From Cordylochernes scorpioides (Eukaryota; Arthropoda; Arachnida; Pseudoscorpiones; Chernetidae): a DNA stretch of 64,000 nucleotides. The stretch is taken from the NCBI GenBank assembly GCA_030710605.1, contig CP092864.1, forward strand, positions 138,075,255 to 138,139,254. Direction: 5' to 3'. The notes under the pieces are model-generated. The model was given only the letters and a program-made list of their open reading frames with translations, searched no databases and was not told the DNA's origin. A program made the position numbers and the translations under genes. Below, one piece after another: positions 5,698 to 63,334 of this stretch (within the stretch, counting starts at the first letter, position 1; every line of letters begins with the position of its first letter).

Positions 5698-5721
5698 GTA
5701 GGTTGACATTTATAAAACTTT

Positions 5722-14987: not shown

Positions 14988-15406
14988 GTCAGTGAGACAT
15001 CCATGTCACCACGTATTGTCTCTCTCTGTTGAGTCTCACATTCTCTATGTGGGCAAACCCTAGTGGGACGTACATATCGACCCCGCCTCGTTCCTCCTTT
15101 ATACAAGTACTTGTATCCTTAGCATTATCATCATTTTTATATTTCAATATTATTGTCTATTAGTTCCTCAATGTATGAAGTATTAGCTTAAAATCTCTAC
15201 AATAATTGAATTTGTGAAAAAATAGTACACAAAAGTCAAATTGTACTGAGATAAGAAGGATAAATTAAGAAAAATCAATCGCCTTATCGTACAAATGAAA
15301 GTTGCTGATGGCTTGCGCCATCTGTCGGAATAAATATCCAGCCTTAAATGTTCATTTCTCAGGAAGCCTCAAGGATCAGCTTTTTGGTCGTAGAGGTACA
15401 GTCCGC

Positions 15407-15447
15407 ACCACGCTGAGAGGGCCAACATCCCGAAAGGCCTACGTGGC
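15407..15447 (+). ncRNA. Hammerhead ribozyme motif, copy a (damaged core)
   Basis: Stem I is CCACG/CGTGG. The core reads CTGAGAG (one base short of CTGANGA), followed by stem II with loop CAACA and then GAAA. Stem III is the palindrome AGGCCT, followed by A at the predicted cleavage site. The core deletion should inactivate it. It sits in a repeat spanning about 15301-15592 whose left end is AGTTGCTGATGGCTTGCGCC. Confidence 0.65.

Positions 15448-16392: not shown

Positions 16393-16396
<4 letters not shown>
15625..16396. repeat. Interspersed repeat A, bounded by TA microsatellites
   Basis: About 770 bp, paralogous to 17395-18200. Both start just after a (TA)n run and end before another. The 5' third holds an open frame of about 60 codons (VDREEQSG..VFQYLSAPWKTFKSS) shared at protein level with the second copy, but stops and shifts follow it. 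The family is not recognised. In the right arm this unit is split by the LINE insertion (31315-31493 and 42146-42770). Confidence 0.5.
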
Positions 16397-16427
<31 letters not shown>

Positions 16428-16831
16428 ATATTGAAATATTTTATTTAAAAATGTTATATGTTAAAATGTTATTTTATTTAAAGTTATAATTTCATAGATA
16501 TAAATACTCTGTTTTAATCGACCGCCAGAGGTCACGCCTTCTCTATAAATAATCATTGTTGTTGTTCTTCCCCGCTGGTCGACCCAAAACTTTGTAATTA
16601 TGTAAATAATATTTTGTTTTATTTATTCTTACGCCTTAAGCCAGGCAGTACTTGTACAAAATTATGTTATTCATATATATTACTCAGCTCAATTAAAGCA
16701 ATTTCTAATCTTCAGTATTTTTATTATTTTCAAGATTCTAGCCACGACTGCACCACCATTACCATAATCCTCAACATGATCAAAATTGAAACAGAAAATC
16801 ATCTTTTTTTATATTATAAGATATATATATA

Positions 16832-17383
16832 TAGGGTGATCCAAAGGTCTTTCACAACTTTAAAAATAATAAATCCGCGAATATTTGCGCTAGAGCAATG
16901 CGGTAAACACCATTGTGTTCAGGATATTAAAAAAAAATTACCAATAGTGCTTTATCCTGTAGGGACGGCATTCCAGAGTAAAATAAATGATCAGAGATAG
17001 ATAAATATTTTTCAAATGAATTAAAATTGCATTTTAAAAATCGTCATCCAATTCTTCTACTTTTGGCGAAGTGGTGTTTTATTAATTTATCATTCGATAT
17101 TATCAGGGTTCTTTTCTGGTATTAAAAAAGGAAATTTACGTGTCGAGAAGTTATATTTTTCAATTCATCAAAATATTTGGCCGCTGAATCTCTGTTTCTG
17201 GTAGAGCGCCATCTAGCGAATAAAATTGTAACTAAAATCAATTTCGAATTTTTCATTATTAGCCCTAAAAATCCCAATGTATCCTGAACACAATGGTGCT
17301 TACCGCATTGCTCTAGCGCAAATATTCGTGGAGCTATTATTTTTTTAAAATGTGTAAGACTTTTGGATCACCCTGTATATACA
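16832..17383. mobile_element. Mariner-type MITE with 100 bp TIRs
   Basis: Ends read TATAGGGTGATCCAAAGG.. and, on the other strand, ATACAGGGTGATCCAAAAG. Inverted arms cover 16832-16930 and 17277-17383 and include GCGCTAGAGCAATGCGGTAA. The 340 bp centre has no transposase. CAGGGTGATCC ends flanked by TA fit Tc1/mariner-derived MITEs. The right-arm copy is 30358-30912. Confidence 0.78.
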
Positions 17384-17394
17384 TGAAAAAACGA

Positions 17395-18200
17395 AAGAAA
17401 AAAAAAGAGTTCTGGTAGCCTCTTGTAGAGTCCTGTCGACTAAATCTGTGATGAGGTATCCAGTCGACTTAAACTGTGGCGTGAGTCCCTGTCAACTCTC
17501 ACTATACTGTGTTGACCGAGAGGAACAGTCAGGATGGGGAGTTTTCCAGTACCTCTCTGCACCTTGGAAGACCTTTAAAAGTTCTCGCAGAGTACAGGCA
17601 GTCGTGGTCGAGGCAGAGTGGAAAGCTTGGGAATGTCCACACAAAAAACGAAGACACAGTTGCACTAAGAAAGTCCGTGAACAGATAAAAGTTGAGCTAG
17701 GAGCGAAAGATGGAAATAGAAGAGTTCTTACTGGGCTACATGGTCGATGAGGCGTACCTGGGGTACAACCGACGAGGGATCACACAGATGGTGAACTGAC
17801 TGTCAAGTGACTGTATTTTTGGCTAAAAACGGGGGCCTTTTATATATTTTCCGAGAAAGGGAGTGTTGCATTTCAACAGATGCGACAGGGGCGTGGATCG
17901 TCTGGTGAAATTCTACTGGCGCCGTCCTGAAAGTTTCCAATCTATCTTTAGATGTTGTTTTGTGACTTCCATCTATCTCGAATTTAGACGTTTTTGACTT
18001 CTATCTCTTTAGCTCAACTCTTAATCTATTACAGAGTTTTATTTATTTATCCTCAGTTTGTACAAAGTACATTACATATGGTGATGTAATGACACATGTC
18101 AATCATGCGTATAATCATTTACAGATGTGTTTCTATTTTACAACATGAAAATCTTGTTATAAGTTATATACAATATGGTTGTTGGTTTAAATTACCATAT
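17395..18200. repeat. Interspersed repeat B, paralogue of 15625-16396
   Basis: A plus-strand open frame (17448-17750) shares VDREEQSGWGVFQYLSAPWK with repeat A and continues into a Lys/Arg-rich CPHKKRRHSCTKK segment. It ends at a stop, and a further short homologous stretch continues out of frame. The 3' part is AT-rich and ends in ACCATATATATATA. The protein family is not recognised; it could be a degraded transposon frame. The right-arm copy is 29525-30350. Confidence 0.45.
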
Positions 18201-18210
18201 ATATATATAT

Positions 18211-18698
18211 TAAAAATAAAGAAGGCATCTCCTGACCACGAGCACATGTGCTTTTTAGATGGCAGAGCGCCATCTAGTGGAGCAAAAATAAACTAAACGT
18301 TTATTTAGCTTGCTCCGTGATATTTGGCCAACCCAATTTCTTGATAAATCAAGAAAAGCCATCCACGAACGCGTTTCGCGCTGTTGGCGCTCGTTAGCGT
18401 GGAGAAGGCTGTAACCACTGCGACCAAAAATATTTTTTTGGTCCCAATGGCTTCCCTAAAAATCAAGAAATGGGTATTTAAGGCCAAATTTGCGTAAAGA
18501 CGCTTAACACATGAAAAAACAATAGAAAAAAATAAAAGATAAGTGGATGGCTTTTCTTGATTTATCAAGAAATTGGGTTGGCTAAATATCACGGAGCAAG
18601 CTAAATAAACGTTTAGTTTATTTTTGCTCCACTAGATGGCGCTCTGCCATCTAAAAAGCACATGTGCTCGTGGTCAGGAGATGCCTTCTTTATTTTTA
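18211..18698. mobile_element. Ribozyme-bearing repeat with 150 bp inverted ends
   Basis: AAAAATAAAGAAGGCATCTC at 18213 is mirrored at 18698. The arms contain CATGTGCTTTTTAGATGGC, a TAAACGTTTATTTAG palindrome and TTCTTGATAAATCAAGAAA. The hammerhead motif lies at the inner end of the left arm. The centre ends in the AATAGAAAAAAATAAAAGAT phrase seen elsewhere in this family. No protein is encoded. The right-arm copy is about 29035-29528. Confidence 0.7.
18362..18403 (-). ncRNA. Hammerhead ribozyme motif, copy b (stem II covariant)
   Basis: On the minus strand: stem I TCCACG/CGTGGA (six pairs), core CTAACGA, stem II GCGC with loop CAACA and GCGC, then GAAA, stem III palindrome ACGCGT, and T at the predicted cleavage position. 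Both strands of stem II changed together relative to GGGC/GCCC in copies d and f. The core G5 is replaced by A, so activity is doubtful. Confidence 0.75.
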
Positions 18699-18699
18699 A

Positions 18700-19336
18700 T
18701 ATCAACACCTGACCCACTTATCTTTTATTTTTTCTATTGTTTTTTCATATATATATATATATATACTTGGCGATGGCTTGATGGCGCTCTGCCATCAAAA
18801 TGTTCATGTGAACGTGGTCAGGATATACCATTTTGGATTTAAATAACAAACTACTAACCTTTGCTATTTTTAAAAAATTATTTTTCATATATATATTGCA
18901 TATGTAATGGATGCTTCTAAGATAATATTTACTTTATAGGGATGATTATATGAATTTATAATTCAGAAACATATATCTAAATGAAAGGTATTACATATTA
19001 AACATAACATAGTATACACACATACCCTATTTACACGTTAGCGCCCTGGATAGAAATAATACGTAAGGTGTCCCCTCAATCAGTTTTGGCGAGTCCGTAA
19101 CGTAACCACGGCGCATTAATAAACAAACCCAACCAACGTTAATTAACTTAGCAAGTTGATAAACTAATTAAGAAGTGTGTGTACCACAGAGTTAATTAGA
19201 TACGAGCCACAAATGTGATCTGGCGAACCCGACAACACTGCTCTCTCTATATATATATATTCGGTATCTCGTGGTTTAACCCGGAAGGACAGTGTTGATT
19301 AGCACATATATATTTTTCTATAATTTTTAACGTGTT
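18700..19336. other. Intron without recognised gene
   Basis: Contains a (TA)n run near 18750, a fragment of the ribozyme-repeat arm (18770-18830, GATGGCGCTCTGCCATC), and otherwise AT-rich sequence. The 19030-19260 part is GC-richer and conserved in the right arm (28490-28720), but shows no open frame or RNA fold that I recognise. Confidence 0.6.
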
Positions 19337-19429
19337 AAGCGTATTTACGCAAGTTTGGCCTTAAATACCCATTTCTTGATTTCTCAGGAAGCCTCTCGAA
19401 CCAAATTGGTCGTAGAAGTACAGTCTGCA

Positions 19430-19469
19430 CCATGTTGACGAGGGCCAACAGCCCGAAACGCGTTCGTGG
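19430..19469 (+). ncRNA. Hammerhead ribozyme motif, copy c
   Basis: Stem I CCATG/CGTGG with one wobble pair, core TTGACGA (first C replaced by T), stem II GGGC with loop CAACA and GCCC, GAAA, stem III palindrome ACGCGT, T at the cleavage site. The carrier repeat is about 19337-19577. The mirror copy is g at 28269-28308. Confidence 0.75.
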
Positions 19470-19783
19470 ATGACTTTTCTTGATTTTTTAATTGATTTCT
19501 GTTCCACTAGATGGCGCTCTGCCATCTGAAAAGCACATGTACTTCTGGTCAAGATATGCCTTTTTATTTTTAATATGTATATATTGCTGTGCTCTGTGCT
19601 GTTATTCTTTTTTAGATTCTATTTTGGTATGATTCAAATAAAAATTGAGAAAAAATAGAAAATGTAAGGTGTTGCTATTAAAAATAACAAATATAGGAAT
19701 ATTCTGACCTCTAATAAGAGCAATTCATCATATGAGCAAATCAACTTAACCTTGATCTAACTTGGATAAATCAAGAAAAGCCA

Positions 19784-19825
19784 ACCACATACATGTTTCG
19801 GGCTGTTGGCCCTCGTCAGCGTGGT
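19784..19825 (-). ncRNA. Hammerhead ribozyme motif, copy d (intact core)
   Basis: On the minus strand: stem I ACCACG/TGTGGT, consensus core CTGACGA, stem II GGGC, loop CAACA, GCCC, then GAAA, stem III palindrome ACATGT, and A at the predicted cleavage site. All catalytic core positions match the hammerhead consensus. The carrier repeat is about 19670-19918. Confidence 0.85.
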
Positions 19826-19959
19826 ACAGACTGTACCTCTATGACCAAAAATTGTTCCTAGGGGTTTCCTGAGAAATCAAGAAGTGAGTATTTAAGGGCA
19901 AGTTTTGCGTTCATGTGTGAAAAAATATTTTATTTTTAAATTATTTTTCAATCACAAAA

Positions 19960-20850
19960 TCAAATATGCAAACGACATTCGCAGCAATGTTTGGACCAAT
20001 TCAAGAGGGATCCGACTGATTTTATGCGGTGATTTGTCACCATGGATAAGACATGGGTCCACCATTACATGCCAGAAACCTAACAGCAGTCGAAGCAGTG
20101 AGTGGAAGCCGTTGGTTTAGCGCCAAAGAAAGCGAAGTCGATCCCATCTGCCAGAAAGGACCTGGCCAGTGTGTTTTGGGATGTCAAAGGATCCTGTTAA
20201 TTAATTACCTTGAATTAGAACTATCACAGGTGAATATTACTGTAACCTTCTTGACCAGCTGGGTGTCAAAATTCGCAGGAAGAGGCCTGGCTTAAAGAAG
20301 AAGCATCTTTCCACCAGGACAATGTTCCTGCTCAAAAAGTGTATTGGCAATGGCAAAACTGCAAGATTTGAGTTACGATTTGCTCGGCCATTCCCCCTAT
20401 TCTCCTGATTTGGCACACTCAGACTTTCATCTCTTCGCAAACATGAAGCAATTTGATTCTGGAAAGCGCCCCGCGTCCAATGAAGAAGTTGAGAGAACTG
20501 TAGATGAATATTTTAGCAGCCTTCCAGACTATCATTTCCGGGAAGGAAGACTGATATTGGAGAAACGCTTGACCAAGTGTGTTGAAGTTAAAGGAGATTA
20601 TGTAGAATTTTTTTCTTTTAAACTGAAAATTTATTTTTCAATCAAAATCAAATATGCAAACGACATTCGCAGCAATGTTTGGACCAATTCAAGAGGGATC
20701 CGACTGATTTTATGCGGTGATTTGCCACCATGGATGAGACATGGGTCCACCCATTACACGCCAGAAACCTAACACAGCAGTCGAAGCAGTGGGTGGAAGC
20801 CGTTGGTTCAGCGCCAAAGAAAATGAAGTCGATCCCATCTGCCATGAAAA
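19960..20850 (+). pseudogene. Mariner transposase pseudogene with partial second copy
   Basis: Frames from 19960 to 20620 give mariner-family protein in pieces: MDKTWVHHYMPET (first catalytic Asp), LLINYLE, FHQDN (second Asp), YSPDLAHSDFHLF (third Asp), then EEVERTVDEYFSSLPD and KCVEVKGDYV. A stop lies just before the first block and several shifts break the frame. From 20636 a second, shorter copy restarts at the same point (ANDIRSN..) and stops near 20850. It replaces the 3' inverted repeat that the right-arm copy still has. The N-terminal DNA-binding half is absent. Not functional. Confidence 0.88.
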
Positions 20851-20858
20851 ATACATGT

Positions 20859-21046
20859 ACAGTAGAACTAGAACCTCCCTGTAAAGGACAACACCTAATT
20901 GCAGAGCCAAAGTATCCTTTAGGTAGAAGTGTCATCTTACCGGATAGTTGTTAAATTGTAAAAACGGTAATTTTGCAAAAGAAAACTGTCCTTTGTAGAG
21001 AGGTGTTCGCTAGAGAGGTGTCTGATAAAGGGAGGTTTTACTATAT
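20859..21046. mobile_element. Pogo/Tigger-like MITE
   Basis: Starts ACAGTAGAACTAGAACCTCC and ends with the reverse of TATAGTAAAACCTCCC, about 190 bp, with no coding capacity. The right-arm version (26735-27020) is longer because one internal block is duplicated. The region 21050-21640 that follows has no recognised gene; its 60-codon frames are unremarkable. Confidence 0.65.
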
Positions 21047-21649
21047 ATGTGAATATGAGAAGTTTGGGAAGGATTCAATCATCACATGGAGTATGTAATT
21101 TAAAGTTTGGCCACCAGATGGAGCCACTAATTGACCCAATCCATCACCAGCTGATTGAACATGGTCAATTGGCGCCTTATTAATTACCCGTCGTCTGCCT
21201 GCCCTTATCACCTCCTGATTAACAATTGGTCTGCTGCACCGCTTGGATCCATGGGAATTCTCAAGTATTGCACATGTCTCATAGGTGGTGGCTGGTTCTG
21301 TCTTATGTCTATGGATGTGTTTGGCCAGTTTCCATAGTCTATGGTTATATTCTTCTCTGTCAGTTTATATCGTCTGTGACTGTCTCAGCCTGGTGAAATT
21401 CTCTATTTGCTAGGGTATGATTAGGATGGGTTCAAATACTCTATGGATTTGATATTTTGTTATGATAGTGGTTAAATAAAGACTTCTGTTTTTCGCTATA
21501 TGTTTTGTATCTTAATACCAACTCCCCCTTTGTCAAAATAAGTGATAACTGCATATATGTTGGGTCAGGAGATCATTCCATCCTTGTCAAGAAGAGTGCT
21601 AAGAAAAATCTTGGATATTAGGAAAGTGTGTAGCTCAAGCACGCTTACA

Positions 21650-21790
21650 ATTATAATATGATACATTAGCACCCCATCTGTTATGGTAATTATAAACTAT
21701 TATAGACGCGTATAATTCTTTTAAAAGTTAAACAATTATGTACTGCCCTGTAGATGCCCTGAAAATGCTTGTAGAATAGGGAGCACTTGA
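21650..21790. mobile_element. Single end of the ACTATTATAGACGCG MITE family
   Basis: CATCTGTTATGGTAATTATA, ACTATTATAGACGCGTATAA and a poly(A/T) block ending CTACTGCCC-like sequence match one arm of 3815-4175. The second arm is missing; the gag-like fragment follows directly. The right-arm counterpart is 26030-26130. Confidence 0.55.
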
Positions 21791-21814
21791 TGCCGTATGT
21801 CACGTAGACGTGAG

Positions 21815-22074
21815 CGACTACTCATTTGGATTTGACATCCAGCCCTGCAGGGATCTGAGAGATCTTTACTCCGTCTCTCAGAGTAATAAAGGTCTCCCGT
21901 CGAGCATCAGCCCAGCAGGAGTCTTCAAGCTGCATCATCTTCTGGATGATGGATGTGACCTGCCCATAGGGCCGCAGCAACGAGGTCGGCGTCCTCCACG
22001 AAGAAGAGCACATTTCCGATCACGATTCGCTCGGCCCTTTTTCTCAGAAGAAAGGCCCGCAAAGTGGCATCCAT
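21815..22074 (-). pseudogene. Fragment of a gag/ORF1-like protein with RRM-like fold
   Basis: On the minus strand from an ATG at 22074 the translation runs MDATLRAFLLRKRAERIVIG, then NVLFFVEDADLVAA. It then shifts frame into LRPYGQVTSIIQKMM and a segment ending LDVKSK at a stop. The alternation around IVIGNVLFFV..DADL..YGQV resembles an RNA-recognition motif, as found in some non-LTR retrotransposon ORF1 proteins. That is inference; no zinc knuckle is present. The frame is broken in both arms (right arm 25705-26000). The open frame upstream of the ATG could be noncoding. Confidence 0.45.
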
Positions 22075-22200
22075 GCAAAGTTCGGTATAAAAACTTCGCA
22101 GTGATGTTTCGTTGTAGGCTGTTGCAAGGATTTTAGACAGACTACAAAATAGCAGAAATGAAAGAGGGTAGAAAATCTTCTTTAAACTAACTTTGTTTAA

Positions 22201-22855
22201 ATATATTGCCACGTGGAAAATTAGGGAAGACCAACTTCGGGATGAGACAACAATTTATTTCAGGCAAGAACAAACTATGAATGGTAAACAAAAGATAAGC
22301 CACGAGGGAAATTTACAGAGTAGCAAAATATAAACATAAAAATGACCACTCTGTAAATAAAAATAATAAAATTAATAAATACTTTGTTACAATATTAAAA
22401 GGACAAAGGAAAAGCCAACAGGTCAGCAGACCACGCTACGCGCTAATGACCGCCGGGGGAAGCCGCGGGCGGAAGGCGGCTAAGATTGATTATTGTTCCC
22501 CAGTACGTCATCCGGCCGTCCCGAAGTGGATCTCTATTATTCCACAAGTTATGAAATCGGTCAAATTTTACAAAAAAAAAAAAGGATAGATGCCTCTTTT
22601 GATACATAAATACAATCCTTTAACAACTTTATATTGCATTCTGGCCTAAAATGCAGTCAGCCACTTTACCTGTTTAAACATCCTTTTGGAAAATTCGATC
22701 GATTTCACTCTTGTAGGGTTAATTCAGAGCCTACCCTGTACTGAATGAAGGCTATAGCCTGAAACAATGATACTTTTGGAATTATCTCGAATTTGCCATA
22801 GCAGGTGTTGTAATTTATTCTTTAAGTTGAAAATAACAGGCCTTTATGGATAATA
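22201..22855. other. Unassigned, end of the duplicated region
   Basis: 22201-22600 contains ATTGCCACGTGGAAAATTAG, a GC-rich patch (CGCCGGGGGAAGCCGCGGGC) and no convincing frame. It is present in both arms up to 22606 and could be part of an LTR, but no partner repeat is in the window. 22607-22855 is found only here because the other contig ends. Confidence 0.5.
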
Positions 22856-22919: not shown

Positions 22920-22961
22920 ACCACGCTGAAGAAGGCCAACAGCCCGAAACACGTACGTGGT
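22920..22961 (+). ncRNA. Hammerhead ribozyme motif, copy e
   Basis: Stem I ACCACG/CGTGGT is perfect, core CTGAAGA fits CTGANGA, stem II is AGGC/GCCC with loop CAACA (outermost pair A.C mismatched), then GAAA, then ACACGT as stem III, which is not fully palindromic, with A at the cleavage site. The carrier repeat spans about 22855-23150 and ends with the AAGCCATCAGCAACTTTC arm. Confidence 0.72.
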
Positions 22962-26000: not shown

Positions 26001-26734
26001 TTCTACAAGCATTTTCAGGGCATCTACAGGGCAGTACATAATTGTTTAACTTTTAAAAGAATCATACGCGTCTATAATAGTTTATAATTACCATAACAGA
26101 TGGCGCGCTAATGTATCATATTATAATTGTAAGCGTGCTTGAGCTACATACTTTCCTAATATCCAAGATTTTTCTTAGCACTCTTCTTGACAAGGATGGA
26201 ATGGTCTTCTGACCCAACATATATACAGTTATCACTTATTTTGACAAAGGGGGGGTTGGTATTAAGATACAAAACATATAGCGAAAAACAGAAGTCTTTA
26301 TTTAACCACTATCATAACAAAATATCAAATCCATAGAGTATTTGAACCTATCCTAATCATACCCTAGCAAATAGAGAATTTCACCAGGCTGAGACAGTCA
26401 CAGACGATATAAACTAACAGAGAAGAATATAGCCATAGACTATGGAAACTGGCCAAACACATCCATAGACATAAGACAGAACCAGCCACCACCTATGAGA
26501 CATGTGCAATACTTGAGAATTCCCATGGATCCAAGCGGTGCAGCAGACCAATTGTTAATCAGGAGGTGATAAGGGCAGGCAGACGACGGGTAATTAATAA
26601 GGCGCCAATTGACCATGTTCAATCAGCTGGTGATGGATTGGGTCAATTAGTGGCTCCATCTGGTGGCCAAACTTTAAATTACATACTCCATGTGATGATT
26701 GAATCCTTCCCAAACTTCTCATATTCACATATAC

Positions 26735-27912: not shown

Positions 27913-27954
27913 ACCACGCTGATGAGGGCCAACAGCCCGAAACATGTATGTGGT
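27913..27954 (+). ncRNA. Hammerhead ribozyme motif, copy f (best consensus)
   Basis: Stem I ACCACG/TGTGGT, core CTGATGA exactly as in the consensus, stem II GGGC, loop CAACA, GCCC, then GAAA, the self-complementary ACATGT as stem III, and A before the predicted cleavage. It differs from its mirror copy d only by T for C at the variable core position, which is tolerated. Stem III is too short to be stable alone, so a dimer is expected. The carrier repeat is about 27828-28070. Confidence 0.87.
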
Positions 27955-28268
27955 TGGCTTTTCTTGATTTATCCAAGTGAGATCAAGGTTAAGTTGATTT
28001 GCTCATATGATGAAATGCTCTTATTAGAGGTCAGGATATTCCTATATTTGTTATTTTTAATAGCAACACCTAACATTTTCTATTTTTTCTCAATTTTTAT
28101 TTGAATCATACCAAAATAGAATCTAAAAAAAGAATAACAGCACAGAGCACAGCAATATATACATATTAAAAATAAAAAGGCATATCTTGACCAGAAGTGC
28201 ATGTGCTTTTCAGATGGCAGAGCGCCATTTAGTGGAACAGAAATCAACTAAAAATCAAGAAAAGTCAT

Positions 28269-28308
28269 CCACGAACGCGTTTCGGGCTGTTGGCCCTCGT
28301 CAACATGG
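28269..28308 (-). ncRNA. Hammerhead ribozyme motif, copy g
   Basis: Mirror of copy c: stem I CCATG/CGTGG, core TTGACGA, stem II GGGC/GCCC with loop CAACA, GAAA, palindrome ACGCGT, T at the cleavage site. The carrier repeat is about 28150-28410. Confidence 0.75.
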
Positions 28309-29333
28309 TGCAGACTGTACTTCTACGACCAATTTGGTTCGAGAGGCTTCCTGAGAAATCAAGAAATGGGTATTTAAGGCCAAACTTGCGTAAATACGCT
28401 TAACACGTTAAAAAATAATAGAAAAATATATATATGTGCTAATCAACACTGTCCTTCCGGGTTAAACCACGAGATACCGAATATATATATAGAGAGAGAG
28501 CAGTGTTGTCGGGTTCGCCAGATCACATTTGTGGCTCGTATCTAATTAACTCTGTGGTACACACACTTCTTAATTAGTTTATCAACTTGCTAAGTTAATT
28601 AACGTTGGTTAGGTTTGTTTATTAATGCGCCGTGGTTACGTTACGGACTCGCCAAAACTGATTGAGGGGACACCTTACGTATTATTTCTATCCAGGGCGC
28701 TAACGTGTAAATAGGGTATGTGTGTATACTATGTTATGTTTAATATGTAATATCTTTCATTTAGATATATGTTTCTGAATTATAAATTCATATAATCATC
28801 CCTATAAAGTAAATATTATCTTAGAAGCATCCATTAACATATGCAATATATATATGAAAAATAATTTTAAAAAAATAGCAAAGGTTAGTAGTTTGTTATT
28901 TAAATCCAAAATGGTATATCCTGACCACGTTCACATGAACATTTTGATGGCAGAGCGCCATCAAGCCATCGCCAAGTATATATATATATGAAAAAACAAT
29001 AGAAAAAAATAAAAGATAAGTGGGTCAGGTGTTGATATTAAAAATAAAGAAGGCATCTCCTGACCACGAGCACATGTGCTTTTTAGATGGCAGAGAGCCA
29101 TCTAGTGGAGCAAAAATAAACTAAACGTTTATTTAGCTTGCTCCGTGATATTTGGCCAACCCAATTTCTTGATAAATCAAGAAAAGCCATCCACTTATTT
29201 TTTATTTTTTTCTATTGTTTTTTCATGTGTTAAGCGTCTTTACGCAAATTTGGCCTTAAATACCCATTTCTTGATTTTTCGGGAAGCCATTGGGACCAAA
29301 AAAATATTTTTGGTCGCAGTGGTTACAGCCTTC

Positions 29334-29375
29334 TCCACGCTAACGAGCGCCAACAGCGCGAAACGCGTTCGTGGA
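29334..29375 (+). ncRNA. Hammerhead ribozyme motif, copy h (stem II covariant)
   Basis: Mirror of copy b: stem I TCCACG/CGTGGA, core CTAACGA, stem II GCGC/GCGC with loop CAACA, GAAA, ACGCGT, T. The carrier is the long-TIR repeat 29035-29528. The paired change in stem II is the clearest covariation in the set. Confidence 0.75.
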
Positions 29376-29524
29376 TGGCTTTTCTTGATTTATCAAGAAA
29401 TTGGGTTGGCCAAATATCACGGAGCAAGCTAAATAAACGTTTAGTTTATTTTTGCTCCACTAGATGGCGCTCTGCCATCTAAAAAGCACATGTGCTCGTG
29501 GTCAGGAGATGCCTTCTTTATTTT

Positions 29525-30350
29525 TAATATATATATATATGGTAATTTAAACCAACAACCATATTGTATATAACTTATAACAAGATTTTCATGTTGTATA
29601 ATAGAAACACATCTGTAAATGATTATACGCATAATTGACATGTGTCATTACATCACCATATGTAATGTACTTTGTACAAACTGATAATAAATAAATAAAA
29701 CTCTGTAATAGATTAAGAGTTGAGCTAAAGAGATAGAAGTCAAAAACGTCTAAATTCGAGATAGATGGAAGTCACAAAACAACATCTAAAGATAGATTGG
29801 AAACTTTCAGGACGGCGCCAGTAGAATTTCACCAAACGATCCACGCCCCTGTCGCATCTGTTGAAATGCAACACTCCCTTTCTCGGAAAATATATAAAAG
29901 GCCCCCGTTTTTAGCCAAAAATACAGTCACTTGACAGTCAGTTCACCATCTGTGTGAGCCCTCGTCGGTTGTACCCCAGGTACGCCTCATCGACCATGTA
30001 GCCCAGTAAGAACTCTTCTATTTCCATCTTTCGCTCCTAGCTCAACTTTTATCTGTTCACGGACTTTCTTAGTGCAACTGTGTCTTCGTTTTTTGTGTGG
30101 ACATTCCCAAGCTTTCCACTCTGCCTCGACCACGACTGCCTGTACTCTGCGAGAACTTTTAAAGGTCTTCCAAGGTGCAGAGAGGTACTGGAAAACTCCC
30201 CATCCTGACTGTTCCTCTCGGTCAACACAGTATAGTGAGAGTTGACAGGGACTCACGCCTCAGTTTAAGTCGACTGGATACCTCATCACAGATTTAGTCG
30301 ACAGGACTCTACAAGAGGCTACCAGAACACTTTTTTTTTTCTTTCGTTTT
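29525..30350. repeat. Interspersed repeat B, right-arm copy
   Basis: Reverse complement of 17395-18200. The minus-strand open frame 29987-30256 again encodes CVDREEQSGWGVFQYLSAPW.. without further identity. Confidence 0.45.
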
Positions 30351-30912: not shown

Positions 30913-31511
30913 ATATATCTTATAATATAAAAAAAGATGATTTTCTGTTTCAATTTTGATCATGTTGAGGATTATGGTAATGGTGGTGCAGTCGTGGCTA
31001 GAATCTTGAAAATAATAAAAATACTGAAGATTAGAAATTGCTTTAATTGAGCTGAGTAATATATATGAATAACATAATTTTGTACAAGTACTGCCTGGCT
31101 TAAGGCGTAAGAATAAATAAAACAAAATATTATTTACATAATTACAAAGTTTTGGGTCGACCAGCGGGGAAGAACAACAACAATGATTATTTATAGAGAA
31201 GGCGTGACCTCTGGCGGTCGATTAAAACAGAGTATTTATATCTATGAAATTATAACTTTAAATAAAATAACATTTTAACATATAACATTTTTAAATAAAA
31301 TATTTCAATATAACATATATATATATATATATATATGGTAATTTAAACCAACAACCCCATACTGTCTATATAACTTGTAATAAGATTGCCATGTTGTATA
31401 TAGAAACACATCTATAAATAATTATGCGCATGATTAATCTGTGTCATTGCATCACCTATGTAATGTTATTTGTACAAAGTGGATAAATAAATATATTAAA
31501 AAGTAAATATA

Positions 31512-32393
31512 TGTCATAATTTGTATATAATTAAATGCAACCCCGACCCACTATGTATGTACCATGTATGATTTTCAAAGACTTAATAAAGAACAAGGTA
31601 ACTGGAGGGAAGCAAGTAGCATTAAGATATAGGAAGTAGACCTAAGGCTGGCACGACTATTCTGGGCACCCCTGTGTCAATATTGCAGGGGCAGAGACCG
31701 GACGTCTCTAGTGACCAGAAGTTATAAATGTTAAAGCTAACACCCAATATTTCCGGCAAAGACAGGACGTATCCAATATCCACAGAAGTTATATTAGTAT
31801 AGAGACACCCCATACTTCCGACCCAAGATAGGACGTATTTGATAACACGGAAGTAAATAAAGTCAAAATAGCACTCGACACTTCCTATCAAGCAGACCAC
31901 AGCTTTCATCAAGGAAAGCCGCGGGCCAATCAAAAGATAGCATCTAAATAGGTCAACCAATAGGGAAAAAGCATGTGATCATCTCTCGACCAATCATAGA
32001 GAAACGGAGTCTTGGTGTTAAATCGAAAGGCAAGGATGGTCAGTTAGGTTTTCGCTCTCATAGGAACAACACCTGCAGTAGCGACTTGGCTCCCACCGAG
32101 TTCGGATCAGCCTTCGACTTGCTCCCACCAAGGTAACATCTGTTCTAGAGATCTCTCTCTCAGCTCAGCTCATAGCTATGTCAATCACCGCCATGTGATC
32201 AGATAAGGAACAATCAAACCCGCTCCTTCTCAAACCTTCTTCCCTCCAATCCAGTTGCCTTTTATTTTCAAAACAATCACGTGTCCTGATTATTCCTAAC
32301 TGTATGCTGCAACTTCCACTCAAACGACTGCGTTTCAATCAATCCTCACCATTCAAATCAAACAACAAGAAACCCCGCAACGATATTGCCACA
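31512..32393 (+). repeat. 5' LTR of the nested element
   Basis: 882 bp, TGTCATAATTTG..GATATTGCCACA. Contains a CTTAATAAAG polyadenylation-type signal and several CCAAT boxes (around 31925, 31967 and 31990). Same length as the 3' LTR. Confidence 0.92.
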
Positions 32394-32471
32394 GAACGGT
32401 TAAGTCGACAGGATAAAGATTATGGAACTTAATCAGGATAAAGATTATAGAGCTTAATCAGGATAAAGATT

Positions 32472-32948
32472 ATGGAAATTAGCCCAGGCACCAGCAAAAC
32501 AAAAGGCAATGACAAACCAAGAAAGAACAAACTGGCAACGAGCGGAAAGAAACTGACAACGAACGAAGCGACAAGACACACCCTGGCGACGGTAATTTTA
32601 GAACTGACCGCCGCGCTACAAGGGCCAAGATCCACGCAACTGGAAGCGGTCTTCCGGAGCGCCACCCTCGGGACAGCCGCCGCCCGCACCGCCGGTACGT
32701 GTCCGAACAACCTGACGTCCACCGAGGAGTCGCCATCCGCCATGCCGTACCCGTGCACCCGGAAGCAAGCCACGCGACACGGGCCCAGTGTACCGACAAC
32801 GCGGTCCACTCGAATGGAAGCAGTACAAATGACTAAATTTCCCTTTCAATTGCGAGGACAGTGCAAAAGGTCCCGACCCGGTCCAACAGATATTCCAAGC
32901 CTGCCACCCCAAGCCGAAGACGCCACAGTGGAGACTTTTCGAGACTAA
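32472..32948 (+). CDS. Short ORF of the nested LTR element, gag position
   Basis: 158 codons, basic and Thr/Ala/Pro-rich (SGKKLTTNEATRH, later FPFQLRGQCKRSRPG). It lies where gag would be but shows neither a capsid pattern nor a zinc knuckle. It overlaps the upstream open part of the next frame, which is in the +1 register. It could be a gag remnant or chance; I do not recognise it. Confidence 0.35.
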   Translation: MEISPGTSKTKGNDKPRKNKLATSGKKLTTNEATRHTLATVILELTAALQGPRSTQLEAVFRSATLGTAAARTAGTCPNNLTSTEESPSAMPYPCTRKQATRHGPSVPTTRSTRMEAVQMTKFPFQLRGQCKRSRPGPTDIPSLPPQAEDATVETFRD

Positions 32949-32949
32949 G

Positions 32950-35316
32950 GTAGGCAATCCACCCAATGACACCATCAAATTGACTTTGGACTTGTATCTG
33001 ACCCAGGACCTACCATGTACCTTTCTAATTGAACCAGACGCAGGTTCGAACATATTGCCGTATCATTTATACAATAGATTAAAAGCACAACTTCCCAACT
33101 TAAGTATTAAAAAACCTTCCCTTGATCTATCCACCCTAAATAGTTTTACGAAAATAATAGGACATTTAACTTTCCCTCTGACAATAGGCCAAATAACCCG
33201 TAGAGAGAACTTCCACGTGGTAAATGCATCCTTGCCATTTGGAGTTCTTACCTTAAAAACCCTTTATCAGTATAAATTAAAACTAAATTATAATCGCGGC
33301 ACTATTTTCCAACTTGGCGTCCCATTGTCTAATCTTATCTACCACTTTAAACATGTGTCAAATGAATGCAAGCACGGGCTAGGCCAAAACCTGTCCCAAA
33401 GGACTCGCACAGCACCCAAAGCTTTCACACATGGAAACCCTTGCCTGCATTCATTGCACAAACCTCCAATATTTACATGCCACCATTCTAATCTCACACC
33501 ACGCAACTTTTCACTCAACCCAATTGCCAATACTTTATGCCCACCACATATAAAGCCACCACGACTCCAACCTACAATTCCAATAATGCCCAAAAAAGTG
33601 TCCGTACACCGACACAGTTCACCCACTTACCACACAAAATCCACACATGACCATACTTCGCAACACCATAAACACGCAAATGTACCTCACAACATACACG
33701 CACCCATACGCCACCACGCAACAAACACGCACAACCCGCCCAACAAGTGCGACACTCACGCCAACAGACGACAACGACAAACAAGAGCATGCACAACCGT
33801 TAAGAATAATACAATCACCCCGTCTACACAAAACATAGAAAAAATTCACGCCACCAAACAACCACACAATCGAAAAACATTACGATCTTTCCTAAAAGCT
33901 GTGAACGCCTATAAAGAGTTCATTCCAGACCACGCCCGCTTGCGGACGCCACTTATCAACCTTCTAAAAAAGGATATCATGTGGGTCTGGGATGACGAAT
34001 GCCAGAAAGCGTTCACTAACCTGAAAGAAAACCTTACCACACACCCCACATTACACCTTTACCAGGAAGGTCTACCATGCCAGGTGTACTGTAACACCTC
34101 AACATTCAGCATTACAGGCGTTCTTAAACAAGTCTACCCTGATGGGAAGACATACACCGTTCAACATTTCAGCCGATCTCTACGTAGTCACGAGCGAAAT
34201 TATTCAGACTTGGAACTACAATGCCTAGCCATTGTGGAAAGTGTGGATAATTTCCGCACCTGTCTAAATGGCAGAAAGTTTACAATATTTTCTGACCATC
34301 CCGCATTGCAGTGGTTGAAAGAGATCAAAGCTCCATCAGGCAGATTGTTTCGATGGAGGTTAAGATTGTCAAGATACGAATATGAGGTCCGTAGCATAAA
34401 TGGAGTACAACAATATGAAACGGGCGTTGGAACTCGTATCCCATTTTGTGGCTTTCTAGATGCACCACTCATACAGAGCCAACAGTCTTTTCCACCGGGA
34501 AAATCTCGCGTGACTATAGATCACAATAAACTGCGCACCGTCTCCCGAAAAGGAGTACTTAAAACTATAGTCCCAAGTTCACTTACAACCAGACTTCTTA
34601 AATCCGTACACACTCAACACCACCACCCAAACATCTCCAAGATGACGAGACTCATCTCATCACAATATTATTGGCAGGACATGACACAAGACATCGCAAA
34701 ACAGGTAAAAACCTGCCCCACCTGCCGATTCGCTAGAAGAATCGATGAATACAAACAACCTGCACGTAAAAATACCGACACAGGTACCCAAACAAAACAA
34801 AATTCGTACATAAAGCACAGCGTACACACAACACAAATAATGCCAAAATTACCACATCCACGTCAGAGAAAAGATCACACATCTCAACCTAAACCAATTA
34901 CCGCCGACATATCTCTAATAAAACCATTGACGATCAAACAGGAGAACTATAAACCGGACAAACAGTTCAATCATACCACATCACTCCCTAAAGATATCAA
35001 ACAAGAGAACTGCGAACCTACCAATCATTCAATTTCTACAATTAATAAGGATCAAACAAATATTTCAAAATCCCCATTTACAAAAATACGAGAGAACATG
35101 GGGCAATACCCTATTTTTCATCTGATTTTCATCCTTTGTTTGTTACTTCTGCCATACAACTGTATTCCAATTTTATTCATCAATTACTTGTTTATATATA
35201 CCATGCCCGCTCAGAAAATCTTCGAACTACAAGAGGCAGTTTTTAATTTTGGACAAACATTAGGAAACATCTTTGCAGAAAATCTAAATAAACTCCGAAA
35301 AGATAGCAGTAACTGA
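32950..35316 (+). CDS. Pol-derived ORF lacking RT and integrase cores
   Basis: A single open frame of about 780 codons. Residues roughly 15-30 (TFLIEPDAGSNILP) resemble a retropepsin site, but with DAG in place of DTG/DSG. A long His/Pro/Asn-rich linker (about 150-300) replaces the reverse transcriptase fingers and palm. The frame resumes in the post-RT segment (YKEFIPDHARLRTPLINLLK) and a full RNase H-like domain. There the first catalytic Asp reads Asn (YCNTSTFSITGVL), while FSDHPALQWL keeps its Asp. An integrase HHCC zinc module (H..H..CPTC) follows, but no D,D-35-E core. The C-terminal 75 residues include a strong hydrophobic segment (FHLIFILCLLLLPY), possibly an envelope remnant. The first in-frame ATG is well inside; the start is not defined. 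Confidence 0.75.
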   Translation, partial: VGNPPNDTIKLTLDLYLTQDLPCTFLIEPDAGSNILPYHLYNRLKAQLPNLSIKKPSLDLSTLNSFTKIIGHLTFPLTIGQITRRENFHVVNASLPFGVLTLKTLYQYKLKLNYNRGTIFQLGVPLSNLIYHFKHVSNECKHGLGQNLSQRTRTAPKAFTHGNPCLHSLHKPPIFTCHHSNLTPRNFSLNPIANTLCPPHIKPPRLQPTIPIMPKKVSVHRHSSPTYHTKSTHDHTSQHHKHANVPHNIHAPIRHHATNTHNPPNKCDTHANRRQRQTRACTTVKNNTITPSTQNIEKIHATKQPHNRKTLRSFLKAVNAYKEFIPDHARLRTPLINLLKKDIMWVWDDECQKAFTNLKENLTTHPTLHLYQEGLPCQVYCNTSTFSITGVLKQVYPDGKTYTVQHFSRSLRSHERNYSDLELQCLAIVESVDNFRTCLNGRKFTIFSDHPALQWLKEIKAPSGRLFRWRLRLSRYEYEVRSINGVQQYETGVGTRIPFCGFLDAPLIQSQQSFPPGKSRVTIDHNKLRTVSRKGVLKTIVPSSLTTRLLKSVHTQHHHPNISKMTRLISSQYYWQDMTQDIAKQVKTCPTCRFARRIDEYKQPARKNTDTGTQTKQNSYIKHSVHTTQIMPKLPHPRQRKDHTSQPKPITADISLIKPLTIKQENYKPDKQFNHTTSLPKDIKQENCEPTNHSISTINKDQTNISKSPFTKIRENMGQYPIFHLIFILCLLLLPYNCIPILFINYLFIYTMPAQKIFELQEAVFNFGQTLGNIFAENLNKLRKDSSN

Positions 35317-37229
35317 AAGATAACCAACCGATGTCGGAGAAGCCGTACTCCAAAAACAAGCCCCGAGCCGCACCAAAAATAAATAGACGGCAGGAAACGA
35401 GAATTTGAGACACCACGACGGAGGTGTAGTCCGCAGCGATAAATTCGGCCTCTGTAAACAAAGCGAAGCGCCCTCGTCCGATCTCCAATTTCATTCCCTC
35501 TCGTTTGCCCGACACACCCCACTTCCGTATCTCTAATTACAATGAGAAGATCCCCTATTGAGGTCAACTGGGAACCTCGCTATGCCACCGATTTTGATTC
35601 CAGTTCGAGTCTACATATCGATTTTTACCAACCAACTCCACATCCACGAGACAACACATAGAACTAGCTCACACATTTCTTACACAATAGACTTCTAACA
35701 TTTTTTCACAACACACACACAAAGACAAAAAATTACACCTAAAGGTTATATAGATTTCCATGTCTCCTGTACACACAGCATAAACGCACTTGAGGGCTAG
35801 AATCACGTTTTTCACCTAAGTGTCGCTACAGATGAGACAAAAAATTTATAGGGCATAATTGAGCAAGTAAAACATTTATAGGGCAAAATGGAGCAACCAA
35901 TACATGTAGATCAGGGCATGTAGATACCAAAGGGTTCCAACCAATACACCTTAATTTTCATATCAATCATTTTCATTATTTTCTCGCAATTAAAAATGTA
36001 AATATTTAATCAATTTATCAATTTATTCAACTTATTACCACTTTTAATCATTAATTATCATTTTTTTTTTCCAATTAGTTTATATTATCATTTTTATTTA
36101 TCAATTATCATTCTATTTACCACTTAGCTTATATTGCCACAACTCAATTATCAACGAAAACCCACTGGTTTTCGATTAAACTAAAAACATTAAATCACCC
36201 TTTGTTGTTGAAACCTTTTTATTTTTCATTTTTCTTTTTTCAAACACTCAACTTTGATTTCGCTCAAAAAAACTTTTATTTTATTTTTATTTTTGATTTC
36301 TCAAAAGACCTAATAGAATTCCTTCGATTTCATTCCCAATCTCGAATAGAATATGGTTAGGCATTTTTCCTTTTTTTTTCACCATTCAACCAAGCACTCA
36401 ACTTTGATTTCGCTCAAAAAACTTTTATTTTATTTTTATTTTTGATTTCTCAAAAGACCTAATAGAATTCCTTCGATTTCATTCCCAATCTCGAATAGAA
36501 TATGGTTAGGCATTTTTCCTTTTTTTTTTTCACCATTCAACCAAGCACTCAACTTTGATTTCGCTCAAAAAACTTTTATTTTATTTTTATTTTTGATTTC
36601 TCAAAAGACCTAATAGAATTCCTTCGATTTCATTCCCAATTTCGAGCTAGAATATGGTTAGGCATTTTTCTTTTTTTTTTTCTCACCATTCAACCAAACA
36701 CATTCAATTTTGTTTTCATTCAACTACTCTTATTTTATTTTGTTTTGATTTCAAAGCACCTTATGAAATTTCCTCGATTCCTTTTTCTCAGAATTCGAGC
36801 AAAAAAGTAACTAAGCAGTTGTCTTTGTCACCATGCAACAAAATATTTTTCTTTTTCAACCAAACACATTCAATTTTGATTTCATTCAACTATTTTTATA
36901 TTATTTTTATTTGATTTCAAAAGCCTTAATAGAACTCCCTCGATATCATTTCTTATCTCGAGTAGAATTCGTTTAGGCGCATTTTTTTTGTTTTACCCAC
37001 TATGTACCATAACATTCATTGAATTCTTACAATTAAAAAATTTTTTGATTTCTATTAATTATACTCAACCTATATCATCAACACCATTCTATCTTACTTT
37101 TATGTCACCAGCAATGCTTGTATATAGACTCAATACCCACAACTAATTTTCCCACAAAATTATTTTTCACTTTACAGAATTCTCTCAGGCTAACCCCTTC
37201 TTGAATTCTTCACATGTAGGGGGCGCATC
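35317..37229. repeat. 3' interior with about 150 bp tandem repeat x 5
   Basis: After the ORF, 36230-36975 holds about five units of 150-166 bp built on CACTCAACTTTGATTTCGCT and GACCTAATAGAATTCC. The first three are nearly identical and the last two diverged. The remainder is AT-rich, with no frame that I can assign. Confidence 0.8.
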
Positions 37230-38111
37230 TGTCATAATTTGTATATAATTAAATGCAACCCCGACCCACTATGTATGTACCATGTATGATTTTCAAAGAC
37301 TTAATAAAGAACAAGGTAACTGGAGGGAAGCAAGTAGCATTAAGATATAGGAAGTAGACCTAAGGCTGGCACGACTATTCTGGGCACCCCTGTGTCAATA
37401 TTGCAGGGGCAGAGACCGGACGTCTCTAGTGACCAGAAGTTATAAATGTTAAAGCTAACACCCAATATTTCCGGCAAAGACAGGACGTATCCAATATCCA
37501 CAGAAGTTATATTAGTATAGAGACACCCCATACTTCCGACCCAAGATAGGACGTATTTGATAACACGGAAGTAAATAAAGTCAAAATAGCACTCGACACT
37601 TCCTATCAAGCAGACCACAGCTTTCATCAAGGAAAGCCGCGGGCCAATCAAAAGATAGCATCTAAATAGGTCAACCAATAGGGAAAAAGCATGTGATCAT
37701 CTCTCGACCAATCATAGAGAAACGGAGTCTTGGTGTTAAATCGAAAGGCAAGGATGGTCAGTTAGGTTTTCGCTCTCATAGGAACAACACCTGCAGTAGC
37801 GACTTGGCTCCCACCGAGTTCGGATCAGCCTTCGACTTGCTCCCACCAAGGTAACATCTGTTCTAGAGATCTCTCTCTCAGCTCAGCTCATAGCTATGTC
37901 AATCACCGCCATGTGATCAGATAAGGAACAATCAAACCCGCTCCTTCTCAAACCTTCTTCCCTCCAATCCAGTTGCCTTTTATTTTCAAAACAATCACGT
38001 GTCCTGATTATTCCTAACTGTATGCTGCAACTTCCACTCAAACGACTGCGTTTCAATCAATCCTCACCATTCAAATCAAACAACAAGAAACCCCGCAACG
38101 ATATTGCCACA
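37230..38111 (+). repeat. 3' LTR of the nested element
   Basis: 882 bp, matching 31512-32393 throughout by eye, preceded by AGGGGGCGCATC and followed by the TATA target copy. Confidence 0.92.
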
Positions 38112-38137
38112 TATATTAAAAAGTAAATATATTAAAA

Positions 38138-39364
38138 ATGTCTGATGATAACAGGAAATTATTATGGGCGGAAGAAATAGAGCAATCAGAAGTCCCGACT
38201 CCAATTTATATAAAAACAAAAAAAGGCCTGAATGGAGAAAAATTATGCACAATTGATGCCACGCTTTTAAAACAAATTTTAGATCGTTGTCAAATCCCAT
38301 ATGTTTTTGAAGATGAGGCAGTTACTGCACGAAAACGACAACGACAATCAAAAGAACATTGCATTTCATCCTCTGATGATGAAGAAAATCCAAAGAATCC
38401 TAGAATTCAATTAGACAACCAGAGCCGTAATAATATAAATGATTTGGACGAATTGGCGGAGGGTCACGATGAGGAAGGACCTTGGTGTGATGTCCCAAAA
38501 AGTAGAAAAATCAGAATTCCTCCTGTTATTGTTGAAAATGTGAACGATTGGAAATTGCTTTGTAAAGAACTAAACAACTTAGCTGATGAACCATTCCAAG
38601 CCACCATATCAGGACCTAAGCATATTATCAAAGCTAAGAATATAGGAGACTTCAAAAAGATCCGTGAATATGTTCGTTTAAATAACGGCGGCTACTCCTA
38701 TAAATTACAAGAAGAAAAACCTTTAAAGGTAGTCATAAAAGGCGTTTCAACCAGTTTTAAAATTGAAGACATTGCAGTTGAATTATCCCACTTAGGCTTT
38801 AAAGAGGCTTCAGTAAAAAGGCTTCACCGCCAATCGTCAAAGCAGGCAATGAACATAGTTCTTGTTGAACTTCCAAAATATGATTCCAACAAGAATATTT
38901 ATAATCTGACTGACCTGCTGTACCAGAAAGTGGTCGTTGAATCCTTCAGATCTCCCAAAAAGGTCACCCAATGTTTCAATTGTCAAGGGTTTGGCCATGG
39001 GCAATTGAATTGCTTTCTAAAACCTAAATGTGTCAAATGCGCCGAAGCTCATCATACCAAAGATTGCCCGAAAAAATCGAAGCAATATTCACCCAAGTGT
39101 GTAAACTGCGGGCAAGCTCACACGGCCAATTATCGTGGCTGCCCTGCGTTCCCAAAAATTCCCAACCAGTCTCTTAACCAACGACCACAAATTCCCAAGG
39201 TTTCTTCATATATTCATAGCAATGTTACCAAAGACAACAGCGCAGTGCAGGAAAGTACCTTTAAGCCTAGTTATGCAAGTGTATCGAAACAAAACTTTGC
39301 GAATCAAAATATTAAAACTCTTTGCGAAAAGCTATTAAGCATTATTGGCGAAGTTCTAAAATGA
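38138..39364 (+). CDS. LINE ORF1, nucleic-acid-binding protein
   Basis: 408 residues from an ATG 26 bp after the LTR insertion point. The N-terminal third is acidic/polar. Residues about 205-285 (LKVVIKGVSTSFKIEDIAVE..HLGF..VKRLHR) match the PRE_C2HC region of Jockey-clade ORF1 proteins. Three zinc knuckles follow from about residue 278: CFNCQGFGHGQLNC, CVKCAEAHHTKDC, CVNCGQAHTANYRGC. The protein would bind LINE RNA and assist target-primed reverse transcription. Its stop overlaps the next start as ATGA, the termination-reinitiation arrangement known for some LINEs. The frame is fully open. Confidence 0.9.
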   Translation: MSDDNRKLLWAEEIEQSEVPTPIYIKTKKGLNGEKLCTIDATLLKQILDRCQIPYVFEDEAVTARKRQRQSKEHCISSSDDEENPKNPRIQLDNQSRNNINDLDELAEGHDEEGPWCDVPKSRKIRIPPVIVENVNDWKLLCKELNNLADEPFQATISGPKHIIKAKNIGDFKKIREYVRLNNGGYSYKLQEEKPLKVVIKGVSTSFKIEDIAVELSHLGFKEASVKRLHRQSSKQAMNIVLVELPKYDSNKNIYNLTDLLYQKVVVESFRSPKKVTQCFNCQGFGHGQLNCFLKPKCVKCAEAHHTKDCPKKSKQYSPKCVNCGQAHTANYRGCPAFPKIPNQSLNQRPQIPKVSSYIHSNVTKDNSAVQESTFKPSYASVSKQNFANQNIKTLCEKLLSIIGEVLK

Positions 39365-43492: not shown

Positions 43493-43531
43493 CCACGTAG
43501 GCCTTTCGGGATGTTGGCCCTCTCAGCGTGG
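43493..43531 (-). ncRNA. Hammerhead ribozyme motif, copy i
   Basis: Mirror of copy a: stem I CCACG/CGTGG, one-base-deleted core CTGAGAG, loop CAACA, GAAA, stem III palindrome AGGCCT, then A. The carrier is about 43350-43645; it lies about 170 bp from the Penelope-like fragment. Confidence 0.65.
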
Positions 43532-60555: not shown

Positions 60556-60565
60556 ATATATTATA

Positions 60566-63291: not shown

Positions 63292-63334
63292 AACACATAC
63301 GCGTTTCAGGCCGTTGGCACTCGTCATAGTTGTA
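63292..63334 (-). ncRNA. Hammerhead ribozyme relic, copy j
   Basis: Minus strand: ATGACGA, then GTGC with loop CAACG and GCCT, then GAAA and the palindrome ACGCGT. Stems I and II are mismatched, so it is a decayed member. The carrier (about 63180-63370) has the TGTCGGAATAAATATCAA arm of the family. Confidence 0.5.

Follow-up and report, generated by a model that had tools for sequence, protein, structure and literature searches.

How do short repeats that carry self-cleaving ribozyme motifs, but no open reading frame (ORF), spread through a genome, and does the ribozyme take part in their spread? The question is raised by a stretch of 64,000 nucleotides from the pseudoscorpion Cordylochernes scorpioides (GCA_030710605.1, contig CP092864.1, positions 138,075,255 to 138,139,254; hereafter the window), in which a first-pass annotation had noted ten hammerhead-like motifs. 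The best explanation, and in our judgement a probable one, is that these are dimer-type hammerheads in non-autonomous units mobilised by a Penelope-like element, and that the RNA of the units is in part cut by the ribozyme before it is copied.

Compact hammerheads with a loopless stem III

All ten motifs were found where they had been placed, to within one base. The layout is stem I, CUGANGA, a stem II hairpin, GAA, stem III, H17 and again stem I. The copies, lettered a to j, are as follows, with f given in its parts.

27914..27953, + strand: hammerhead f, CUGANGA and GAA core bases all retained
27914-27918, + strand: f, stem I CCACG
27919-27925, + strand: f, core CTGATGA
27926-27938, + strand: f, stem II
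27939-27941, + strand: f, GAA
27942-27947, + strand: f, stem III ACATGT
27948, + strand: f, H17 (A), followed by stem I TGTGG
27948/27949, + strand: f, predicted cut
19785..19824, - strand: hammerhead d, core CTGACGA at 19813-19819; inverted-duplicate partner of f
29335..29374, + strand: hammerhead h, family B, stem III ACGCGT, core CTAACGA (G>A)
18363..18402, - strand: hammerhead b, inverted-duplicate partner of h, core CTAACGA
19430..19469, + strand: hammerhead c, stem III ACGCGT, core TTGACGA (C>T)
28269..28308, - strand: hammerhead g, inverted-duplicate partner of c, core TTGACGA
15408..15446, + strand: hammerhead a, stem III AGGCCT, core short by one base
43493..43531, - strand: hammerhead i, inverted-duplicate partner of a, core short by one base
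22921..22960, + strand: hammerhead e, closest to family A, core CTGAAGA, stem III ACACGT, one stem II mismatch
63293..63332, - strand: hammerhead j, degenerate, core ATGACGA

The ten motifs amount to only six independent copies (a, b, c, d, e and j). The window is a large inverted duplication, spanning 4630-22601 against 25183-54573 with main pieces 94.6-98.1% identical by self-BLAST, and b and h, c and g, d and f, and a and i are therefore pairs. The duplication is either a true palindrome or two haplotypes joined in assembly. Its right arm is interrupted by a long terminal repeat (LTR) element and a long interspersed nuclear element (LINE), and gaps of 100 bases lie in the window at 4530, 25081 and 47746.

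The core CTGAYGA, described at first as common to the family, is exact in d and f but absent from the other eight motifs; d and f do keep every core base, yet they are one copy seen twice. Among the ten, CUGANGA is retained only by d, f and e, which have all the type I features (CUGANGA with GAA, A15.1-U16.1 and an H17 other than G). Stem III is the hexamer directly before H17 and has no loop, so that it cannot fold on itself and needs a second strand with the same hexamer in order to pair. The motifs are thus compact type I hammerheads with a loopless stem III. This stem, mostly ACGCGU, would form between two RNAs or between neighbouring units of a tandem transcript, and since it pairs between strands the motifs should cut as dimers.

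The core word CTGAYGA alone is not clearly enriched, with 19 occurrences in the window against 13.2 expected and 7 of 100 shuffles reaching 19. A structural scan of the window and 41 further loci (at most one change in core and GAA together, at least three pairs in stem II, a palindromic stem III and at least four pairs in stem I) reported 33 alternatives, several per motif, with a mean of 0 in five single-base shuffles; 6 of the 10 window motifs pass it. The window lies in a genome of 2.62 Gb in 24 contigs, where the whole-motif pattern matches exactly at 29,226 places and its reversal at none; with stems II and III left free the counts are 46,756 and 25. Stem II reads GGGC/GCCC in 37 and GCGC/GCGC in 23 of the 100 matches listed, the second pair changing on both sides between these two main types. 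The half-changed forms are GCGC/GCCC, found once, and GGGC/GCGC, found in none, while the other 39 are mostly single departures from one or other main type. Because the changes in stem II are two-sided, with a single half-changed case, the hammerhead is maintained as a structure. H17 in the same 100 matches, which were selected for the core, is U in 40, C in 36, A in 23 and G in 1. The covariance-model search that the first-pass annotation had proposed as a check gave no Rfam match at gathering score in the window; the best hammerhead model, Hammerhead_HH9 (RF02275), reached 25.1 bits there and 26.5 bits in loci L042 and L043, against a cut-off of 52.

It had also been proposed that selection holds stem III as a palindrome and not as a sequence. 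Nine of the ten hexamers in the window, and five of the six independent ones, are self-complementary, the exception being ACACGT in e. Genome-wide, 77 of the 100 matches listed have a palindromic stem III, and the mostly non-palindromic hexamers that had been named as evidence to the contrary were not encountered. Palindromes are common, then, but 76 of the 77 are the one sequence ACGCGT, for which reason the idea that the palindrome and not the sequence is selected is only partly supported, and the main family does not bear it out. The remaining palindrome, ACATGT, is two CpG transitions away from ACGCGT; 17 of the 23 non-palindromic hexamers listed can likewise be derived from ACGCGT by CpG transitions. 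The copy that has AGGCCT is one whose core is broken. Better evidence for a palindrome rule may be offered by a second hammerhead family, seen in one locus (L058, 1938-1981, minus strand; stem I CCTAGA/TCTAGG, loop CATTA), with the eight-base palindrome ACCATGGT as its apparent stem III. Relatives of the flank of this hammerhead are held by L045 and L053.

Carrier units and their insertion ends

The carriers of the hammerheads are ORF-less units of about 340-350 bp that stand singly, in tandem or head-to-head. Two families are distinguished, with reference units of 338 bp (family A, L042) and 349 bp (family B, L045), and positions in a unit (u) are counted from the predicted cut, u=1 being the first base after H17. 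Exact copies of the family anchors number 15,169 (A) and 20,445 (B) genome-wide. Tandem units of 338, 349 and 350 bp match at 98-99%; arrays of 338 bp x 5.7 at L042 and 349 bp x 2.4 at L045 fit the unit length of 150-450 bp by which retrozymes are recognised, and at L043 two-unit arms flank a junction on both sides. Within the window, the units and their partner arms lie as follows.

29191..29530, + strand: family B unit carrying h, 3' end at u=161
28988..29194, - strand: head-to-head partner arm of the h unit, 5' end at u=2 beside the cut, tailed 3' end at u=208
18207..18546, - strand: duplicate family B unit carrying b, 3' end at u=161
18543..18748, + strand: duplicate partner arm, 5' end at u=2, 3' end at u=208
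15213..15338, - strand: family A partner arm, tail end at u=202, head-to-head with the unit carrying a (15351-15590)

In addition, a palindrome at 5725-5962 is a head-to-head pair of family A unit pieces.

The 3' ends of the units fall mainly at two sites about 47 nt apart, the stretch between them being termed the tail. Among pieces of more than 80% identity, family A has 24 of its 46 ends at u 145-157 and a further 13 at u 198-206; of the 31 ends in family B, 17 lie at u 156-164 and another 11 at u 204-208. In a second sample of family B, with 60 ends, 36 lie at u 147-164 and another 17 at u 202-208. Abutting pairs are head-to-head in 18 cases and tail-to-tail in one. The tail is present on one end only in 13 of the 15 scorable head-to-head pairs, on both ends in one and on neither in one, three pairs being unscorable (L047 and L048, which repeat L046, overlapping L001-L008, L055, L067, L074 and the duplicate arms of the window were omitted from this table). 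An exact target-site duplication of at least seven bases accompanies 12 of 105 copies, a figure given with no chance control and including some of low complexity.

A one-sided tail, head-to-head arms and two 3' end sites are together the signature of Penelope-type insertion. Penelope-like elements are reported to bear the tail on one of two head-to-head inverted pseudo-LTRs (pLTRs; PMC3846280), and the reverse transcriptase (RT) of a Penelope-like element of Anolis starts at two sites inside the RNA, the interval between which is the tail, and prefers ATT targets (PMC11167929). The sharing of this pattern argues that a Penelope-like enzyme copies the units. The Penelope link drawn in the first-pass annotation is therefore supported, although on the strength of insertion structure and not of the weak stem III that it had cited. 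On sequence grounds, the motifs are best regarded as minimal hammerheads of type I and of the dimer kind, carried by interspersed repeats with a link to Penelope-like elements, and their cleavage is presumed to be dimeric.

The 5' ends bear on the role of the ribozyme. Copies were fetched by an anchor that starts at u=10, irrespective of the presence of a hammerhead, and their 5' ends were then mapped. The 126 anchor occurrences sampled (52 A, 74 B) come from a subset of the 100 places that head the list for each family, every one of them on contig C1, so that the sample is not random; segmental duplicates such as L081/L083/L135 and L112-L115 are included. Of the ends, 110 fell within the sequence retrieved and 16 beyond it. 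The commonest three-base window among the 110 is [-1,1], with 14 ends, the next separate window having 8; this window was chosen after seeing the data, although its position had been predicted beforehand. Of those 5' ends that adjoin another unit piece, 11 of 35 within [-42,9] lie at the cut (P 2.7e-6 under a uniform spread), four in family A and seven in family B. At L086, L078 and L088, which stand outside the count of host-flanked ends given below, the duplicated target (11 or 12 bases at L086) sets the start of the element no more than two bases from the cut. Genome-wide, in counts of exact patterns that cover one flank each and serve as relative numbers, family B has 269 ATATT junctions at u=1 and 17 at a control position, u=15, which also follows a T run; since the element has TT before u=1, some of the 269 may be ends at u=-1 or u=0.

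These ends can be accommodated by the following mechanism. A non-autonomous element of about 340-350 nt would be copied in trans by a Penelope-type reverse transcriptase and endonuclease, which would start inside the RNA at either of two places about 47 nt apart. Copying at both ends of a break in AT-rich DNA would then give head-to-head insertions, one arm tailed and the other tailless. In some events the RNA would have been cut beforehand by the ribozyme, and the DNA copy would run out at the cut. It is likely, though not proven, that self-cleavage shapes the template of retrotransposition. We lean towards cleavage as the cause of the 5'-end pile-up, and it is marginally favoured that the insertions keep a footprint of cleavage in vivo, some DNA copies having stopped at the cut so that the dimer hammerhead sets the 5' ends of templates. 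The peak of 5' ends at the cut is the new element here, the kinds of hammerhead and retrozyme themselves being known. No earlier report of Penelope-like copies that end at the cut was found in a literature search made without most subscription papers, by which absence is not proven.

Several observations weigh against this explanation. Among host-flanked 5' ends taken by themselves, the excess at the cut is not significant (3 of 21, P 0.12); of the 46 family A ends in the sample, 4 lie near the cut against an expectation of 1.5 (P 0.07). Under a stricter labelling, 7 of the 14 cut-site ends are inverted junctions (2 A, 5 B), as compared with 10 and one direct junction. The patterns behind the 269 and 17 junctions differ in letters, and the counts are raw for copy number and duplicates. 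Moreover, only family B shows the signal genome-wide: before u=1, family A has ATATT at 2 junctions and ATATC at 12, and the claim that both families end at the cut in host DNA is withdrawn on that account. After ATATA, family B has 27 junctions, mostly ambiguous. The array at L044 has a period of 114 bp, which is not a full unit. Thermodynamically predicted folds of monomers and dimers did not recover the hammerhead, and a non-palindromic control hexamer came out close to the natural hexamer in score, so that energy folding is not used as support. Within the units and the fetched flanks, no ORF with RT and GIY-YIG was found joined to the hammerhead units, and this hammerhead is present in the 1.5-kb flanks of only 2 of 30 GIY-YIG loci. 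In the Anolis element PAc, RNA with a dead ribozyme was reported to insert in vitro no less well than the intact form, and none of the RNA reads had its end at the cut (PMC11167929).

A pile-up could also arise without any cleavage, if the reverse transcriptase stalled at the folded dimer, stem III lying just upstream, and microhomology of TT with ATT targets fixed the junction. This is possible, but on balance we do not favour it. The difference between the families speaks for it, as the element has TT before the cut in family B and TC in family A, and the scarcity of ATATA junctions, some of which are AT repeats, implies that the TT common to element and target plays a part in joining to the host. 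Nevertheless, the TTTT run ahead of u=15 yields only the 17 junctions noted above, and a stall at stem I would be expected some bases earlier, near u=6. Cleavage is preferred because at the junctions between unit pieces, where the target has no part, the ends peak at the cut in both families, whether the wider or the stricter count is taken.

It may be asked, too, whether the units pass through circular RNA, tandem units being cleaved twice, ligated into circles and copied as such, in the manner of a retrozyme. Unit length and tandem organisation match those of animal retrozymes (PMC7229834), and the two-unit arms on both sides of the junction at L043 are in keeping with it. However, ends at the cut site would be expected of linear templates and not of circular ones, and of the invertebrate retrozyme hammerheads in print, most need no dimer for efficient cleavage (PMC7229834). 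This route is possible, though on balance not favoured, and as a side route it is compatible with Penelope-type copying of pre-cut RNA.

Candidate partners and other elements of the window

The enzyme proposed to act in trans was sought through its endonuclease domain. The genome is rich in GIY-YIG domains: at least 146 matches exceeded the family cut-off, 150 of 17,015 first-look candidates having been scored. By Pfam, L041 encodes RT with a C-terminal GIY-YIG domain and is arranged as a head-to-head pair; its overlapping head-to-head frames, of 784 and 695 aa, have about 200 bp in common at the junction, an arrangement like that of the small units. L040 has an N-terminal GIY-YIG domain in an 828-aa frame in which Pfam finds no RT, the RT part being recognised by reading of the sequence. 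The hammerhead is absent from the three longer GIY-YIG loci (L039-L041), and the GIY-YIG neighbours were rejected as autonomous partners, as both of the flanking hammerheads are not placed as a pLTR would be. When ORFs of at least 120 aa from L009-L041 were searched against the hammerhead loci and the window, Penelope-like fragments turned up close to a unit twice, at L057 and at 42865-43047 of the window. Neither is an autonomous carrier: at L057 a unit is inserted inside the ORF of another Penelope-like element, and 42865-43047 is a separate Penelope-like insertion. The latter lies in a truncated, different Penelope-like insertion at 42815-43315, which has inverted arms and a C-terminal GIY-YIG fragment, is present in the right arm only and adjoins copy i. 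As no RT ORF was found in the units or the fetched flanks, the units are termed non-autonomous and Penelope-mobilised.

The units might instead be solo pLTRs of an autonomous Penelope-like element that is still present, a reading suggested by the place of the start codon. Penelope-like pLTRs carry hammerheads near the ORF start, and the ORF of Anolis PAc begins at stem II, with the cut 26 nt downstream (PMC11167929). Inside the core, family A has an ATG that lies a few bases further 5' than in PAc, its A being 27 nt ahead of the cut; in copy f this ATG opens a frame of 60 codons (window 27922-28104). By direct reading, however, the family A unit at L042 has a stop 11 codons after the ATG; clean ORF-less tandem arrays of about 340 bp exist, and the two Penelope-like fragments near units are insertions of other elements. 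We consider this reading unlikely. That the motifs are dead repeats, old satellite or transposon debris with a resemblance to hammerheads and no present role, is very improbable, for although only three of the ten window motifs retain the core, intact-core copies number in the tens of thousands, arrays match at 99% and stem II changes are two-sided.

The window holds other features besides. An LTR element at 31509-38111 has 885-bp repeats of 99.9% identity and a frame that matches RNase H and integrase zinc-binding domains, and beside it, at 38120-42009, is a LINE-type element with an RVT_1 frame and, by eye, a zinc-knuckle frame. A second LTR element (55370-60557; 342-bp repeats, 100% identical) has a long pol frame and, by eye, a gag-like frame. 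Both arms of the duplication contain receptor exons (52260-54807 and 4426-7015), which encode an ANF_receptor ligand-binding domain and then, by eye, a multi-pass membrane segment without a Pfam match. U6atac-like matches at 26175-26242 (29.8 bits) and 21534-21602 (23.5 bits) do not reach the cut-off of 33. At 5711-5885, 9844-9933, 49511-49600 and 55214-55350 there are foldback palindromes, perfect or nearly so; the many microRNA matches (E up to 5) are below their cut-offs, lie on such long foldback repeats and are not taken for microRNAs.

Relation to known systems

Penelope-like minimal hammerheads that cleave as dimers were reportedly described by Luense et al. in 2017 and by Cervera and de la Pena in 2014. 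Such dimer-type hammerheads of Penelope-like elements are known, both studies being cited in PMC6466107 and PMC7761336, and the present motifs have in common with them the type I fold, a diminished stem III, thousands of copies, an association with Penelope and presumed cleavage as dimers. They differ in that they stand in ORF-less units of about 340 bp without RT, for which dimer cleavage is predicted.

Short tandem units with type I hammerheads are the non-LTR retrozymes of animals, known from coral, mussel and axolotl (PMC7229834). The axolotl hammerhead Amex1, with a helix III of one pair and a palindromic tetraloop, works better as a dimer (PMC7229834). The hammerheads of these animal retrozymes are canonical, with contacts between loops, and their circular RNAs are proven (PMC7229834), whereas the pseudoscorpion units are known from DNA, have a loopless hexamer as stem III and show documented Penelope-type tails. 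Within the five-pair stem I of the latter no loop is evident.

Closer likenesses are found among the Penelope-like elements themselves. In Anolis carolinensis PAc (Poseidon), as here, the hammerhead is near the start of the template, two internal RT starts explain the tail and targets are ATT, and the distances from start codon to cut, given above, differ by one nucleotide (PMC11167929). Unlike the present units, PAc is autonomous; its start codon follows G8, whereas the family A ATG overlaps G8, and its ribozyme needs protein in vitro and is dispensable for insertion (PMC11167929). The Penelope elements of Adineta vaga likewise have head-to-head inverted pLTRs, one of them with a tail of 31 bp, and target-site duplications of 8-10 bp, but they carry ORFs, and the tail here is about 47 nt (PMC3846280).

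The part played by the ribozyme in retrotransposition was still called a mystery by a 2020 review (PMC7761336), and on this question tens of thousands of insertions allow ends to be counted at base resolution. The present data tie short, ORF-less, retrozyme-like hammerhead units to the signature of Penelope insertion and so suggest which enzyme moves them. The units stand between the dimer hammerheads of Penelope-like elements and the retrozymes of animals, with an unusually clear Penelope insertion structure.
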